From the IMG/VR virus record IMGVR_UViG_3300028653_000409, positions 1 through 51,872 of that record: a stretch of DNA of 51,872 nucleotides. One strand, written 5' to 3'. The stretch is from a virus. This document shows, in pieces, positions 6,188 through 20,543 of this stretch. Under the pieces are notes generated by a model that was not told the origin of the DNA, made no database searches, and worked only from the letters and a program-made list of their open reading frames with translations. The position numbers were made by a program, and so were the translations under genes. Position 1 is the stretch's first letter, and every line of letters starts with the position of its first letter.

Positions 6188-6372
6188 TCGATATGCCCTC
6201 CACTGATCGGGTCGATGGCGGGGGATGGATGCGGAATGAACACGACCGCTTGTCCAAGCTCGATCCATTCGAGCCCGCACGTCGTGCATTGCCATCCGGT
6301 TTGCACATGCTCGCGATCGAGAGTCTTGATGACCATCGCGGAGGTGCATTTTGGGCAGATGCGGTCGGTCAT
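6184..6372 (-). CDS. 62-aa zinc-ribbon protein
   Basis: A short two-pair zinc ribbon: CPKC at residues 6-9 and CTTCG at about 29-33, the classic rubredoxin-like knuckles, followed by an aromatic/hydrophobic tail. It is coupled to the upstream Gp37/Gp68 gene by an ATGA overlap and to the next gene in the same way. Function unknown. Confidence 0.65.
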   Translation of the reverse strand: MTDRICPKCTSAMVIKTLDREHVQTGWQCTTCGLEWIELGQAVVFIPHPSPAIDPISGGHIE

Positions 6373-7340
6373 GTCCGCACCTCGGGAAATTCTCGATGCG
6401 TCTCGCCGTCAAGTTCGGCGCCTGCCGCTTTCTTTCCGACACGAACCATGTTGACGGGGAACTGCTTCGGCTCCGATGCGTGCAGAATTATTTCGTTTTT
6501 GCTCTGTTGAACCTTCAAGAGTTGCGTGGATCCGCCGGCTGCATCAGGAGGCGTCAAGTAATAGCGCGGCTCCCAAGCACCCCACTGCTTAAAGAACAAC
6601 GGAACCTTGGCCAACTCACATTGGTCGCGAAGATCGCGCACCCATTGGGGATGCATGGGGCGGGCGCGCGGGCCGGATTCGCCGCCGCAGATCACCCAAT
6701 CGATCTTGAGTCGAGCACCAACGATGCCGTTGCCTTCAGGGTATTTCATCCAATCCACATCCGAACAGTCGATGTCGATTGGCCCCAGAAGTGGCTCGCA
6801 TGATACGAACCGCACGGCTGCGGGCGTCATTAATAGATCGGGAATACGCTCGTCAGCGCGTTTCTGGTCTTCGATTGAGACGCCGAACCAGACGTTCGGA
6901 AGAGGCCATGGAATATCGGGATCAGCGCGCGTAACCCATGCACGCATTCGCTCGGCGCGTTTCGTGAGCACCTGGAAAGTATGGTGCTTGGCGTAGCGCA
7001 TGACTTCGAAGACGCGCTCGATCCACTCGTCGGGAATAGATTCGTGGAACAGATCTCCCATCGAATTGACGAAGATGCGCCGCGGCTGCTTCCACGACAG
7101 TGGTTTAAGAAACAGCTTATCCGGCGCCAACGCGACCTTGCCGGTCCATACAGCACCAACTTTCGAGTCCTGTGTCGTGCCGATGTAATGTGATAGCGCG
7201 GAATTCTTGCGGCTGATGATCTCAAGCCTTCGCGCCATCTTCATCGCATAGCAATTTGTGCAGCCGGGCGAGACGACCGAGCACCCGACGATCGGATTCC
7301 ACGTCGCATCCGTCCATTCGATGCCGGTCTTGTCGCTCAT
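6369..7340 (-). CDS. phage Gp37/Gp68 (DUF5131) family protein
   Basis: A 323-aa protein opening TGIEWTDATWNPIVGCS. Cysteines C20, C27 and C30 (C-x6-C-x2-C in SPGCTNCYA) recall an iron-sulfur or radical-SAM-like cluster. Further conserved-looking blocks are NSMGDLFHESIPDEW, VFEVMRYAKHHTFQVLTKRAERM, and WVICGGESGPRARPM with its GGESGPxARP string. This family is frequent in phages and its biochemistry is not settled. The neighbouring adenine methylases suggest a nucleic-acid modification role, but this is inference. Confidence 0.8.
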   Translation of the reverse strand: MSDKTGIEWTDATWNPIVGCSVVSPGCTNCYAMKMARRLEIISRKNSALSHYIGTTQDSKVGAVWTGKVALAPDKLFLKPLSWKQPRRIFVNSMGDLFHESIPDEWIERVFEVMRYAKHHTFQVLTKRAERMRAWVTRADPDIPWPLPNVWFGVSIEDQKRADERIPDLLMTPAAVRFVSCEPLLGPIDIDCSDVDWMKYPEGNGIVGARLKIDWVICGGESGPRARPMHPQWVRDLRDQCELAKVPLFFKQWGAWEPRYYLTPPDAAGGSTQLLKVQQSKNEIILHASEPKQFPVNMVRVGKKAAGAELDGETHREFPEVRT

Positions 7341-10307: not shown

Positions 10308-10535
10308 TCATGGCGTAGCTCCCGCCGGCTCGCCGGCCGCATAGGCGCGGATGACCGCTTCGCGCGAGACGCCCAGCACCTCTTCTATCTTCGGCCATTG
10401 CTTGCGATTGGGCAGGCTGATCCGCCGTTCCCAACGCGAGATCGTCATCCCTTCGACGCCGATCCGGGCGCCAGCCGCAGTCTGCGTCAGGCCTTTGGCC
10501 TTGCGTGCAACCACCATTGGATGCGAATCAGACAT
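10308..10535 (-). CDS. XRE-family helix-turn-helix regulator (Cro-like)
   Basis: A 75-aa, single-domain XRE protein: KAKGLTQTAAGARIGVEGMT is the helix-turn-helix and ISRWERRISLPNRKQWPKI the following helices. Its size fits Cro. It is the first gene read from the minus promoter at 10545-10571 and faces the larger XRE gene at 10641. By position it would start the lytic direction. Which of the two proteins is the true repressor needs an experiment. Confidence 0.8.
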   Translation of the reverse strand: MSDSHPMVVARKAKGLTQTAAGARIGVEGMTISRWERRISLPNRKQWPKIEEVLGVSREAVIRAYAAGEPAGATP

Positions 10536-10544
10536 GACGTTGGT

Positions 10545-10571
10545 CTATACAGGAAATGTTAGATTTTGCAA
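10545..10571 (-). promoter_or_regulatory. early minus-strand promoter with operator motif
   Basis: On the minus strand TTGCAA (10571-10566), a 16-nt spacer and TATAGA form a plausible promoter for the Cro-like gene. The 18-mer CTAACATTTCCTGTATAG (10562-10545) covers the spacer and -10. The same 18-mer with one change lies in the plus-strand promoter at 11402-11419, so both promoters probably share a regulator. Confidence 0.65.
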
Positions 10572-10579
10572 ATGTCAGT

Positions 10580-10595
10580 AGTTTCACGTGAAACA
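10580..10595. promoter_or_regulatory. parS-like ParB site / candidate operator
   Basis: A perfect 14-bp palindrome, GTTTCACGTGAAAC (10581-10594), flanked by A on each side. It matches the bacterial chromosomal parS consensus TGTTTCACGTGAAACA at 15 of 16 positions. It lies in the space between the divergent XRE genes. No parA or parB gene is visible in the window. It could recruit host ParB or serve as the operator of a phage regulator. Confidence 0.65.
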
Positions 10596-10610
10596 TTTGG
10601 AGATAAAGAC

Positions 10611-10629
10611 GCCAACTCAATATGTTGGC
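10611..10629. promoter_or_regulatory. inverted repeat before the plus-strand XRE gene
   Basis: GCCAAC and GTTGGC arms separated by seven bases lie 11 bases before the ATG at 10641. This fits an operator for the XRE gene's own control or a small leader hairpin. Confidence 0.4.
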
Positions 10630-10640
10630 ATCATCGCGGC

Positions 10641-10970
10641 ATGGGTGGAACGCCTCGCATCAAGCCTCGTCATCCACGGAAAATTTATTTGGCCGAGTGG
10701 CGGGCCCATCGCGGACTGAGCCAAGACGGCCTCGGCGAGCGCCTCAACCCGCCGGTGGCCGGCATGACCGTCTCGCGATGGGAAACCGGCGTTTCCCGAA
10801 TGTCCGATCAGGTGATGGCGGCCGTGGCCGAAGCGCTCGACGCCGAGCCCCAAGACCTTTACCGGCATCCGAAAACGGAAAGCGCCGATGCGCTGATGCG
10901 TGAGGCGCCAGACGACCTGCGGGACGCAGCCATGCGCGCGGTCGCGGCGATCATAGGGCGGCGGGGATGA
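10641..10970 (+). CDS. XRE-family regulator, likely lysogeny repressor
   Basis: A 109-aa protein with an XRE domain: YLAEWRAHRGLSQDGLGERL, then MTVSRWETGVSRMSDQVM, and a helical C-terminal part (DALMREAPDDLRDAAMRAVA) that could mediate dimerisation. It is longer than the divergent Cro-like protein and shares a transcript with the lipoprotein gene, as expected for a gene on in the lysogen. Start 10641 was chosen because an upstream in-frame ATG at 10566 would read through the parS-like palindrome. It has no visible protease-cleavage domain of the LexA type. Confidence 0.75.
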   Translation: MGGTPRIKPRHPRKIYLAEWRAHRGLSQDGLGERLNPPVAGMTVSRWETGVSRMSDQVMAAVAEALDAEPQDLYRHPKTESADALMREAPDDLRDAAMRAVAAIIGRRG

Positions 10971-11320: not shown

Positions 11321-11367
11321 GTAAATCTAGGTTCGGAACATCCTGCGCAGGTGCGCCATTTTTGGCA

Positions 11368-11420
11368 TAACATTTTTTGTCTAATTGGCTCTTGTAGCCT
11401 GCTAACATTTTCTGTATAGT
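11368..11420 (+). promoter_or_regulatory. repressible promoter of the small-gene/xis/int operon
   Basis: TTGTAG (11392-11397), a 17-nt spacer and TATAGT (11415-11420) make a good promoter. CTAACATTTTCTGTATAG (11402-11419) overlaps the spacer and -10 and matches, in opposite orientation, the motif in the early minus promoter. A degenerate copy lies at 11368-11383. An 8-bp inverted repeat, CTCCCACA/TGTGGGAG, follows at 11422-11448. Confidence 0.7.
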
Positions 11421-14117: not shown

Positions 14118-14510
14118 ATGCAGCTCACCGCCGCTTTGATCGCCGATAAATACGGATTTACCCCTAGACACTGGATACGGCAGGCCGCCTCCGGACATAT
14201 CCCCGGCGCCCGTCAACCCTCTGGACCTGGAGGCCATTGGCTGTTTGACTCGGCTGAGTTCGAATCTTGGTGGCGGTCCCGAAAGCGTGAGGTGGCGTCA
14301 TGGCCGGGCTATACCGTCGCGGCAAAGTGTACTGGGCGCGCGCCCAACGTCAGGGCCGAGAGCACCGGATCAGCCTCAAGACAAAGGATCGATCAATTGC
14401 TGAAAGACGTCTTAGGCAATGGCTCGGCGACCTCGAGGCGATCCGATGGGGAGACAAGCCGCGGCGGACCTATGACGAGACGTCCGAGCGGTTCATCCGT
14501 GAACACCTGA
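14118..14510 (+). CDS. excisionase-like helix-turn-helix protein
   Basis: The first 65 residues form a MerR/Xis-type winged helix: LIADKYGFTPRHWIRQAASG, HIPGARQPSGPGGHWLFDS, AEFESWWRSRKREV. This domain binds DNA beside att sites and directs excision. The rest of the frame, to 14510, overlaps the start of int by 211 bases in another frame and shows no structure. The functional protein is probably the N-terminal part, and the C-terminal tail may be an accident of the overlap. Confidence 0.6.
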   Translation: MQLTAALIADKYGFTPRHWIRQAASGHIPGARQPSGPGGHWLFDSAEFESWWRSRKREVASWPGYTVAAKCTGRAPNVRAESTGSASRQRIDQLLKDVLGNGSATSRRSDGETSRGGPMTRRPSGSSVNT

Positions 14511-15379
14511 CGACGCTCAAGCCAGGCGCCGCCAAGCGCTATGGCGTCAGCCTCAAGAACCTCGCTCTGCAGTTTGGCGGCAAGACGCTCGACCAAATCG
14601 GCGGCGCGACCCTATCGGAATTCGAGACCAAGCGGCGCACCGACGGCGTCACCGCCGGCACCATCCGCCGGGATCTTGCCTGTCTGTCATCGATGCTCAC
14701 CAGCGCGCAAGACTGGGAGTGGATCGACGACGGCGCCAACCCGATCCCCGCCTATCTGCGGCGCCGGGCCAAGCGCGGTCTCAAGGAGGCGCCAGGCCGC
14801 ACCCGCTATCTGACCAAAGCCGAGGAAGCCGTCTTGATCGACGCGGCGACGCCCGTCGGCGCGCTCACGAAGGCCGGCAAGCAGTTTGGCAAGCCCACCT
14901 GTGCGCGCGAGACGATCACCCTGTCGATCGACACCGGGCTGCGGCGCGAGGAGCTGTTCAGCCTCACATGGTCTCAGATCAACCTCAAGGCGGGAACCAT
15001 CACGACCACCACCAACACCAAATCCGGCCGCGCGCGCCTCGTGCCGTTGCCGGCGCGCAGCCGCACAATTCTCGGCACAATCCCCAGGCACATCGAAACG
15101 CCCTATGTATTCGTCAATCCAGACACCGGAGAGCGCTTCGTGCAGCAGAACAAGGGGCTCGCCGCCGCCGCCCGCCGCGCCGGCATCAAAGACCTAAAAT
15201 GGCACGATCTCCGCCGCACCGCCGGCTGCCGCTGGCTGCAGCGCGACGGCAAGACAATGGCGGAGGTATCATTGATGCTCGGCCATTCCAGCATTGTCGT
15301 GACCGAGGAATGCTATGCGTTCCTCGAGCCCGAAGCCGTGGCAAAATCTCTCGGCGCCGGCACAAAAACAGGCACATAG
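14300..15379 (+). CDS. int: tyrosine-recombinase integrase
   Basis: A 359-aa phage integrase: a basic arm-binding N-terminus, a SAM-like core-binding domain (about 60-145), and a catalytic domain with R215 (TGLRREEL), K241, H302 and R305 (HDLRRTAG), H329 (LGHSS) and the nucleophile Y339 (ECYAFL). All active-site residues are present. The attP-like tRNA-Gln 3' half lies 57 bases downstream. It is the last gene of the plus operon, so its expression should follow the repressible promoter at 11392-11420. Confidence 0.95.
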   Translation: MAGLYRRGKVYWARAQRQGREHRISLKTKDRSIAERRLRQWLGDLEAIRWGDKPRRTYDETSERFIREHLTTLKPGAAKRYGVSLKNLALQFGGKTLDQIGGATLSEFETKRRTDGVTAGTIRRDLACLSSMLTSAQDWEWIDDGANPIPAYLRRRAKRGLKEAPGRTRYLTKAEEAVLIDAATPVGALTKAGKQFGKPTCARETITLSIDTGLRREELFSLTWSQINLKAGTITTTTNTKSGRARLVPLPARSRTILGTIPRHIETPYVFVNPDTGERFVQQNKGLAAAARRAGIKDLKWHDLRRTAGCRWLQRDGKTMAEVSLMLGHSSIVVTEECYAFLEPEAVAKSLGAGTKTGT

Positions 15380-15564: not shown

Positions 15565-15845
15565 ATCGGACACACAGAAGTCGGCACAATCGACGCAATG
15601 CATGTTCGCATCCGTTCACCTTCTGGTGCTGATCGGCCGGCACCTGGGGGCTTCCACCGTCGCCCGGTTGCACGAGCTCCAGTTATGGGAGAAAACCCAT
15701 GATCGGAGGCAAACGGCTGAGGATGCGGGCCATGAGGTCAGTGATGATCTTATGCTCCCGCACCACCATTGGTTCCGCATTTATCCCTTGACAGCAAGTA
15801 CTGTTCGTGGTGGGATATCCCTCAACCGCAGGTGAGGGAATTCCG
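15485..15845. other. non-coding stretch between attP and the transposase
   Basis: About 360 bases without a supported gene. It holds the second candidate integrase arm site near its left end and the transposase promoter near its right end. A weak plus-strand frame (15602-15835) lacks any recognisable feature. No terminal inverted repeat of an insertion sequence was found by eye. Confidence 0.4.
15788..15816 (+). promoter_or_regulatory. candidate promoter of the transposase gene
   Basis: A perfect TTGACA at 15788-15793 is followed after 17 bases by a weak TGGGAT. It sits 30 bases before the transposase ATG, which itself has GGTGAGGG just upstream. Confidence 0.4.
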
Positions 15846-16742
15846 ATGGCCCGCTACACCCTTCAGCAGTTCCAATCCGAATACCCCAATGACGAGGCAT
15901 GCTTGGCCAAACTCATGGAGGTGAACTACGGCGGTACCGAAATTACATGCCCCGGATGTGGCGTTCAGCACGCCAAATTCCACGCCATGACCACCCGCAA
16001 GGCCTACGCTTGCCAAGAGTGCGGCCATCACATCTACCCGTGCGCCGGCACCATCTTCCACAAATCGAGCACGCCGCTGACGAAGTGGTTCTTCGCCATG
16101 TACCTGATGACCAGCACGCGCTCAGGCGTGGCCGCCAAAGAGCTAGAGCGGGCGCTGGGCGTGACTTACAAGACCGCGTGGCGAATGGCTCATGAACTTC
16201 GAAAGCTCATGGGCAGCGCAGATTATGCCGGCCCGCTCGGCGGCGAAGGCAAGCACGTCGAAGTCGACGAAACTCTAGTTGGTGGGCAGGCTCGCCGCCA
16301 CGGCAAGGGGAAGGGCCGGCGAGCAAAGAAAACCATTGTCATGGGCATGGTGGAGCGCGGCGGGATGCTTCGATCCGGCCCGGTTCCGGATGACCGCAAC
16401 TTTACGTTAGAGCCGGTGATCCTTGAGAACGTGATCCCTGACACCGTAGTCACGACCGACGGCCACACGTCCTACCAAAATCTCGGCTTGACCTATCAGC
16501 ACACGGCCGTCCGCCATTCTGAGAAGGAATACGTTCTCGGAAAGCACCACACGAACACGATCGAAGGACACTGGTCGCACTTCAAGCGCGCGATCAAAGG
16601 CACGCACGTCCACATTTCATCGAAGCATCTGTGGAAGTACTGCGCAGAGTTCAACTATCGGCGCAATTATCGCACGTCGCACGCTTTCATGTTCAATCGG
16701 CTTGTGGGGGCTTTCGCGCTGCCACGCCTACAAGACGCGTGA
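15846..16742 (+). mobile_element. ISXO2-like (IS1595 family) transposase gene
   Basis: A 298-aa transposase. An N-terminal zinc ribbon (C35/C38 in CPGCG, C56/C59 in CQECG) is followed by a helical region typical of the group (KWFFAMYLMTSTRSGVAAKE) and a DDE-type domain: D in EVDETLVGG, D in TTDGHTSY and the final NTIEGHWSHFKRAIKGTH block. It appears intact. Its 3' end overlaps the converging protease gene by 50 bases. No terminal inverted repeats were found by eye, so it may be an orphan or domesticated copy. Confidence 0.85.
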
Positions 16743-17820
16743 AATCCTCTTGGTGCGTGGGGTTCGCATCGCTGGAGGAATCGCCCTCCTGCTCAGTAGC
16801 GGACGTCAATGTGACGCCACTCTTTTTGGATACCTCAAAAAGATCTTTCCCTATTTCGTCTGTGATCTTCATAAGCTCCGTTCCTAGAATTAGGTCGTTC
16901 AGTTTCCAACCGGGAATCACGCCCATCATGCCGCTGTTCGAGCGGACGTACCAGTCGTGCATCGGCTTGTCGGTTGCCCCGGTTCTGACACGTTCACGAT
17001 CACCGAAGTAACAAAAGCTCACGCCTAAAAGGATCGGCCCAAATCCGAAATCCATGTTGCGACGTTTCCTGCGCAGCATTGGAAATTGCTGAAAGAGAGA
17101 TTCTTGAGCATCGGCGCTGTAGCGTTCAAGTCGCGCTTGAGGAGGAACGTACAAGAATACAGGCGATCCGCTATATCCGGAGAGCGAGCGCACTTCGACC
17201 AAAAAGCAATCCTGCCGAAAACCGTCGTCCATTAAAATCGGCTCAACCGGCATTTGAGAGATGTTCCCAAATCTCAAAGCGGGAATATTTATCTTCGCTC
17301 CCTCACGACCGATAAACCGTCCAACTGTGAAGACCTCATCTCCGATGCCGATATCGAGGCCCTCAATCGAGCTTCTTGTTACACAATTAAGCCCGCCAGC
17401 ATCCATGTACGGATATGGATGCAACGGAGCTAAGCCGAGAGGATAAACGGCAAGGTCATCGCCGGCCGGATGATAAATCCAGTTCCGCTCATCGAGCGTG
17501 AACGTGTCCATTTTGCCGGACTTGGTGTTGCTGCGGACAACCGAATTTCCGGCCTCTGCAACATGCTTATTCGTCACAAGGCACAAAAACGTCGTGACGA
17601 CTTGGTGGTCCAGATTCGCGACCGGCGAACCGATCAGAAATCCCGTTCCACCGATGCGTTCGCCTTTTTCGGCGGCATCTTCGCACGGATAAAGGTAGAC
17701 GACGCAATTCAGATATCGCTCGTCTAGGCGCGGCATGTCGCGGACCCACATCTGAAGGGGGTAACCACGTCTAGAGTACCGCGTTTCGAAATGCCCGCTA
17801 CGGGGTTCGGAAGGCATCAT
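16693..17820 (-). CDS. trypsin-like serine protease (accessory gene)
   Basis: A 375-aa protein with a chymotrypsin-fold triad: H86 in LVTNKHV after GGTGFLIG, an Asp at 121-122 in DDLAVYPL, and S217 in SLSGYSGSPVF. No signal peptide is visible, so it should act in the cytoplasm. It lies between attP and the small-gene cluster, a typical place for accessory cargo. Its last residues run into the transposase gene on the other strand. Trypsin-like proteases occur as effectors in bacterial immunity, but its target here is unknown. Confidence 0.7.
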   Translation of the reverse strand: MMPSEPRSGHFETRYSRRGYPLQMWVRDMPRLDERYLNCVVYLYPCEDAAEKGERIGGTGFLIGSPVANLDHQVVTTFLCLVTNKHVAEAGNSVVRSNTKSGKMDTFTLDERNWIYHPAGDDLAVYPLGLAPLHPYPYMDAGGLNCVTRSSIEGLDIGIGDEVFTVGRFIGREGAKINIPALRFGNISQMPVEPILMDDGFRQDCFLVEVRSLSGYSGSPVFLYVPPQARLERYSADAQESLFQQFPMLRRKRRNMDFGFGPILLGVSFCYFGDRERVRTGATDKPMHDWYVRSNSGMMGVIPGWKLNDLILGTELMKITDEIGKDLFEVSKKSGVTLTSATEQEGDSSSDANPTHQEDFTRLVGVAARKPPQAD

Positions 17821-19781: not shown

Positions 19782-20543
19782 TTAGTTTGAGTTGGGGATC
19801 GGATGCAGCTTGCGCCACTCCGACCGCTCTTTGTCCGTCTTAGACCGCCAGCCAGGAAACCAGTGATTGATTGCCGGCGCGCTGATTGCCTTGGTCACTT
19901 CCTTTTTCTTTAACTTGTAGGTGACCTCGATCTGTTCTGCGATGCGAGAGATCGGCGTATTCGTGGTCAGCAGCATCTTTTCGATCTGCTTGAACTGCGC
20001 TCGCGACATCCGAACCTGCCGGCCGAGAGGAACGCCGCGCTCTTTGAGCCGCGCCATGCCGGCCTTGGTCCGCTCGACTGTCATATCGCGCTCTAACTGC
20101 GCAAGACTGGCGAGCATGTGCAGGTAGAACTTGCCGAATGGCGTGCGCGTATCGAGCTGTTCGGTCAGGCTGACGAGGTTCCACTGTTCCTTGCGGAACT
20201 CCTCCATAAGGTCGATTAGACCCTTCACGTCCCTGCCGAGCCGGTCGAGCTTGTAGACCACCAAGGTCCATCCGGGGCGCCCTCGCATCAGCATGAGAGC
20301 CAAGCGTAGCTGCTTCCGGTTCATCTTGGCACCGGAGCCAGTATCAACGAAAAGGTTGTTGTCCGGAATGCCGCGCTTTTTCATGAGCGCGATCTGCATG
20401 TCCGCGCTTTGGTCGCTGGCCGAGACACGGCAGTACCCAACTTCCTCTGTCGGGTCTGGTTCATCCATGGCGTCCGCCGGTAGCGGGCCGGCGGCTCCGT
20501 TCCATTTCCGAATCGTTTTCAACGCTTTAGAAGCCTTGACCAT
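19782..20543 (-). CDS. serine recombinase (resolvase/invertase)
   Basis: A 253-aa small serine recombinase. The catalytic serine is S41 in GYCRVSASDQ, followed by the resolvase strings YKLDRLGRDVKGLI and LASLAQLERDM, the latter the start of the long E helix, then ERTKAGMARLKERG and a C-terminal helix-turn-helix (ISRIAEQIEV). An N-terminal extension of about 34 residues is unusual; a start at residue 26 is possible. The phage already has int, so this enzyme may invert or resolve accessory DNA instead. Confidence 0.85.
   Translation of the reverse strand: MVKASKALKTIRKWNGAAGPLPADAMDEPDPTEEVGYCRVSASDQSADMQIALMKKRGIPDNNLFVDTGSGAKMNRKQLRLALMLMRGRPGWTLVVYKLDRLGRDVKGLIDLMEEFRKEQWNLVSLTEQLDTRTPFGKFYLHMLASLAQLERDMTVERTKAGMARLKERGVPLGRQVRMSRAQFKQIEKMLLTTNTPISRIAEQIEVTYKLKKKEVTKAISAPAINHWFPGWRSKTDKERSEWRKLHPIPNSN

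Follow-up and report, generated by a model that had tools for sequence, protein, structure and literature searches.

A probable host-type parS site within the lambda-like immunity switch of a temperate phage

Introduction

ParB-parS is the main origin-segregation system in most bacteria outside Enterobacteriaceae. A sequence of the parS type is present between two divergent regulatory genes of a virus (IMG/VR record IMGVR_UViG_3300028653_000409, positions 1 to 51,872; this whole stretch of 51,872 nucleotides is referred to as the window). This location raises the question of whether a phage without partition genes carries a functional docking site for the ParB of its host, or whether the palindrome is an operator or a coincidence. 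Our analysis indicates that the feature is probably a borrowed host parS placed in a lambda-like switch.

Results and Discussion

A parS-type palindrome between divergent XRE genes

Positions 10580-10595 of the window read AGTTTCACGTGAAACA, with a single mismatch to TGTTTCACGTGAAACA. The inner 14 bp, GTTTCACGTGAAAC (10581-10594, no strand), form a perfect palindrome. The site agrees with the chromosomal parS consensus TGTTNCACGTGAAACA (PMC7022226; GTTNCAC/GTGAAAC core) at 14 of 14 core positions and 15 of 16 overall. The mismatch falls on the outermost base, 10580, and appears unimportant, since the outermost bases vary among sites near parB and the parS of S. pneumoniae is AGTTTCACGTGAAACT (PMC7022226). 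The palindrome is located 46 bp from the ATG of the leftward XRE gene (start at 10535, minus strand) and 47 bp from that of the rightward XRE gene (start at 10641, plus strand). The sequence-only reading had described a 15/16 parS match containing a perfect 14-bp palindrome, exactly between divergent XRE regulators, and both descriptions were borne out.

No other parS match with up to three mismatches occurred in the window, and dinucleotide shuffles gave a mean of 0.19 at the same loose threshold. The exact 14-mer should be much rarer by chance, since host-order genomes totaling about 1.3 Gb (as estimated from the genome table) contained a single match to its backwards control. A palindrome arisen by chance and without function is very improbable. 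In favor of such an origin, the palindrome was picked out by reading the whole window for striking features, and many other stretches were read likewise; against it stand the scarcity of control matches and the almost identical site that a diverged relative, L235, has in the corresponding position.

Gene content of the phage

The virus record contains genes for an integrase, a replication initiator, a portal, a major head protein, a tape measure, and a terminase. The tyrosine integrase (14300-15379, plus strand; phrog_1, 8.4e-51) is that of a temperate phage, and the replication-initiation-like protein is encoded at 1348-2484 on the minus strand (phrog_270, 8.9e-10; HTH_36). Megablast against known phages revealed no relative of the window.

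Searches of the entire window with PF02195 (ParB_N), PF13614 (ParA-type ATPase), and an HMM built from five host ParBs yielded no match, in line with the earlier claim that parA and parB are absent. A large par-bearing segment is seemingly not missing, because the first and last genes of the window adjoin each other in a related Pseudolabrys prophage. The site is located on a phage genome without parB and not near oriC or parB. A ParB-fold gene of the DGQHR type (L214, 5069-5959; C39 of G029, the related prophage in Pseudolabrys JAUXXH010000025.1), about 1 kb from the sequence GTTTCCCGTGAAAC, was considered as a phage ParB candidate and set aside, as this sequence occupies another place and has a core mismatch.

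Several other genes were observed. A serine resolvase (19782-20543; PF00239) is encoded besides the tyrosine integrase and could resolve multimers of an episome or invert DNA. An IS1595-family transposase (15807-16742; PF12762) resides within the phage and has a homologue in the phage of L235 (record G331); its end is overlapped by a minus-strand gene (16693-17820) with a weak match to trypsin-like peptidases (PF13365, under the cut-off). The DUF5131 protein encoded at 6369-7340 (PF07505, 1.9e-99) is an uncharacterized phage protein with strong conservation.

Probable host order and its parS

Relatives of the portal protein were found in Pseudolabrys (76% identity), Devosia, Mesorhizobium, and Enterovirga, all of which are classified in the Hyphomicrobiales. 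Judged from these related prophages, the phage host probably belongs to this order. The exact 14-mer was present in 262 of 298 Hyphomicrobiales genomes, against a single match for the backwards control. Each of the five genomes with portal relatives carried it once or twice, within a few kilobases of parB; both Pseudolabrys sites read AATGTTTCACGTGAAACATT, and the bases flanking the 14-mer were variable among the sites near parB. The 14-mer of the window is identical to the parS of the ParB of this probable host.

The palindrome could instead serve as operator to a different regulator, of the phage or its host, that recognizes a CACGTG palindrome. Many perfect palindromes between divergent promoters are operators, and a control palindrome in viral contigs was likewise mostly intergenic. 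On the contrary, no such regulator was identified in the phage, and in two host-order genomes with extra copies (G207 and G305) the inspected sites were located beside parB or housekeeping genes such as mutM/ubiE and miaA, which share no common regulator. We regard this alternative as improbable.

Operators and putative promoters of the switch

The leftward regulator (10308-10535, minus strand; 75 aa) is a Cro/CI-type helix-turn-helix protein (PF01381, HTH_3, 1.3e-9), and the rightward one (10641-10970, plus strand; 109 aa) has an HTH_31/HTH_3 domain (PF13560, 5.4e-8). Both belong to 17-member families: profile searches gathered 16 phages in which this divergent pair recurs, making 17 with the window. 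This divergent-XRE family (L229-L243, L262, L267, and the window) had not been named before and probably has a leaderless rightward start. A search for XRE proteins in 300 genomes returned only generic ones, and these ORFs were discarded.

An 18-bp operator, CTANACA-N5-TGTTAG, was derived by comparing the window with its nearest XRE relatives. Alignment of the 17 intergenic regions revealed three conserved operators, namely O1 at the leftward promoter, an inverted O2, and O3 at the rightward promoter, and the window has all three. O1 (CTATACAGGAAATGTTAG, 10545-10562, plus strand) fits the consensus exactly and overlaps the leftward promoter; O2 (AACATTTGGAGATAAAG as written on the plus strand, about 10592-10608, minus strand) is weaker, with a 1-bp gap, and aligns with the conserved O2 of the relatives; O3 (GCCAACTCAATATGTTGG, 10611-10628, plus strand) aligns with their O3 and lies inside the rightward promoter. 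Many of the 17 phages have a further operator or operator pair 3' of the rightward gene, the paired ones being 32-35 bp apart in several relatives. In the window these are found on the minus strand at 11367-11384 (two mismatches) and 11402-11419, the latter being exact and forming an 18-nt inverted repeat with 10545-10562 (94%).

A consensus scan of the window for sigma-70 promoters found none. A putative leftward promoter, PL (10544-10571, minus strand), was read from the sequence, with a -35 box TTGCAA (10566-10571), a 16-bp spacer, and a -10 box TATAGA (10544-10549); a TTGACA-like -35 box recurs at this promoter among relatives. The putative rightward promoter, PR (10606-10634, plus strand), was deduced from the alignment and has a -35 box AAGACG (10606-10611), a 17-bp spacer, and a -10 box CATCAT (10629-10634). 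Most relatives have GTGACG as the -35 box of PR, and the window version is a weak consensus match; its putative transcript would start leaderless at 10641. Divergent helix-turn-helix regulators, three shared operators between them, and a second operator set appear to constitute, by anatomy, a lambda-like immunity switch. The operators were defined by comparison, and the XRE pair would control both divergent promoters via O1, O2, O3, and the downstream pair. By this anatomy each regulator is predicted to repress the promoter of the other.

The palindrome matches none of these operators and is a fourth element filling the O1-O2 gap, midway between the putative -35 boxes and 10-12 bp from each. 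Its right edge overlaps O2 by 3 bp, so it is partly not independent of that operator. An operator of one XRE protein that merely resembles parS had been named earlier as the main alternative. Such palindromes are bound by XRE proteins, and in L164 and L165 about 34 bp separate O1 from the beginning of the inverted O2, which is the distance of the palindrome in the window. However, full alignment places O2 of the window at 10592-10608, past the palindrome, and the operator consensus, which recurs at O1 and at the two downstream sites, differs from GTTTCACGTGAAAC. Moreover, the O1-O2 gap is longer in the window and L235 and accommodates the palindrome in addition. The 17-phage alignment rules out this reading as the main explanation, and the alternative is now disfavored, with little probability left to it: the XRE operators have a different sequence and occupy three other intergenic places as well as downstream ones.

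Conservation among the switch phages

The related phages were searched for the motif at the same place, with a divided outcome: a near-identical site was found in L235, while the other 15 of the 17 phages, L229 and 14 more, lack it. The L235 site, TGTTTCACGTGCAACA (phage record G331), occupies the same O1-O2 gap, and its reverse strand, TGTTGCACGTGAAACA, fits the consensus TGTTNCACGTGAAACA. The probability of an L235-like site arising by chance in the regions of the 16 relatives ranges from about 3e-4, calculated analytically, to 1e-3, obtained by shuffling (4 of 4,000 shuffles). The window and L235 have little in common besides the switch, a methyltransferase, and the IS1595-type transposase, and their rightward XRE proteins are 56% identical. 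Since the genomes are mostly different and these proteins so diverged, neutral retention of the site in both phages is unlikely.

The window, L235, and L229 cluster in the tree (support 90/93, not starred). At the place of the palindrome L229 has TAGTTTGCCACATTT, which may be a decayed copy of the site. The switch does not depend on the site, because the 14 remaining phages do without it. A composite pattern of parS plus O2 gave 62 matches in IMG/VR; only the phage of L235 led back to the switch family, and most of the matches reflect an extended parS consensus, AACATT. The sequence GTTTCACACGAAAC beside the downstream operators of G343 was set aside owing to core mismatches.

Host-type parS in other phages

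The exact sequence TGTTTCACGTGAAACA was present in 286 of 50,697 phage records (about 412 sites, or 824 places when each strand is counted), and a second parS type, TGTTCCACGTGGAACA (the GTTCCAC variant), in 58 of them, both counts being inflated by near-identical phages. Three control palindromes of related composition gave 0, 0, and 0 matches in the same records. A part of this parS set is not functional, since the sites in Listeria (87) and Microbacterium (49) phages are mostly within one gene, and that of a Klebsiella jumbo phage is within a structural gene, the host group of Klebsiella being without chromosomal ParABS.

Other members of the set are difficult to attribute to chance. The most compelling individual example of a phage with host-type parS is the filamentous inovirus bajarodino virus 6 (L291, PQ006149.1), whose genome of 5.9 kb contains six 16-bp sites but lacks ParB. 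Five of the sites (635, 662, 1414, 2857, and 5628) are outside annotated genes and one (4096) is just within an annotated ORF; most are extended to AATG...CATT. Two sites 19 bp apart were found in Glutamicibacter phage Voltaire and two sites in Gordonia phage Woes; the sites of Voltaire and Arthrobacter phage Nubia adjoin polymerase or tail genes. Among INPHARED records, exact parS was also counted three times in KT870145.1 (Roseobacter), four times in MH884508.1 (Bacillus cohnii), three times in MN882551.2 (Butyrivibrio), and twice in KU998240.1 (Gordonia).

In IMG/VR, at least 120 contigs contained the 16-mer, compared to 11 for the control. About 17 of these contigs had 2-5 copies, and a search for ParB was positive in 1 of 120 stretches among the matches listed (about 10 kb around each site). 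An apparent enrichment of the viral-contig sites in intergenic regions (59% versus 14% at random) was dismissed as not specific, 10 of 11 control sites also being intergenic. These data provide evidence that phages commonly carry host-type parS sites. No report of host parS on phages was found in open-access full text, the literature searched.

Proposed role of the site

The palindrome is most readily explained as a real docking site for host ParB, neither an XRE operator nor a product of chance, and on sequence grounds we assign this explanation a probability of about two in three. Chromosomal ParB of the host would dock at 10581-10594, in the only free gap, O1-O2, of the lambda-like switch. 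Because the palindrome is identical to host parS and ParB acts as a CTP clamp, the protein would be expected to load there and slide outward. Most likely, the benefit would be to circular phage DNA that is not yet integrated, has been excised, or persists in a carrier state: it would share the positioning and segregation of the host origin without parA and parB of its own. Segregation as the main purpose is proposed tentatively. Certain properties count against a docking site: it is single in the phage, only 2 of the 17 switch phages carry it, L229 of the same branch being without it, and a prophage integrated at a distance from the origin would bear it as an ectopic parS, possibly at a cost.

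ParB loading would be expected to affect the two early promoters, as a side effect or possibly as the main function. Under the regulatory alternative, ParB loaded between PL and PR biases the choice between lysis and lysogeny or signals to the switch the cell-cycle or origin state of the host. The position midway between the -35 boxes in the immunity regions of two diverged phages is consistent with such a role, as is the fact that these phages share mainly the switch module. Elsewhere, however, parS occurs away from switches, being distributed around the inovirus genome at six places and located near polymerase or tail genes in Nubia and Voltaire. A purely regulatory site is rather unlikely, and a general role in DNA positioning and segregation is somewhat likelier because the sites of other phages are away from switches.

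Compared with known systems, the palindrome shares with parS of chromosomal ParABS (TGTTNCACGTGAAACA) the 14-bp core, exactly of the Hyphomicrobiales type, and perfect symmetry, but it is single-copy, unaccompanied by parA and parB, and located in an immunity switch rather than close to oriC/parB. Phage-plasmids of the P1/F type and mycobacteriophages with parABS likewise have a partition-type site on a temperate phage, but they encode their own ParA/ParB with their own parS, whereas the site in the window is host-type and without par genes. The immunity region of lambda (cI/cro, OR1-3, and OL) also has divergent helix-turn-helix regulators with three operators between them and more across the gene. 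The window differs in the added parS-type palindrome between the promoters, in the 18-bp CTANACA-N5-TGTTAG operators, and in the small size of the XRE proteins, which lack a peptidase domain. Certain filamentous phages use host XerCD/dif, a cis-acting site of host chromosome maintenance whose trans-acting factors are not in the phage; in the window the target would be ParB/parS instead.

We consider it an even chance that host parS without parA/parB is carried by numerous phages of unrelated kinds (lytic, temperate, and filamentous), which would position or segregate their DNA by means of host ParB, and that the site in the window couples the lysogeny switch to this protein. The enrichment over control palindromes suggests that parS borrowing is widespread and has been overlooked. 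If so, ParB ChIP-seq peaks would be expected on infecting phages, carrier-state stability would be lost on removal of the site, and little enrichment would be seen among phages whose hosts lack chromosomal ParABS. For the phage, such borrowing would mean that partition, or a cell-cycle-linked input to the switch, is gained for 14 bp of DNA.
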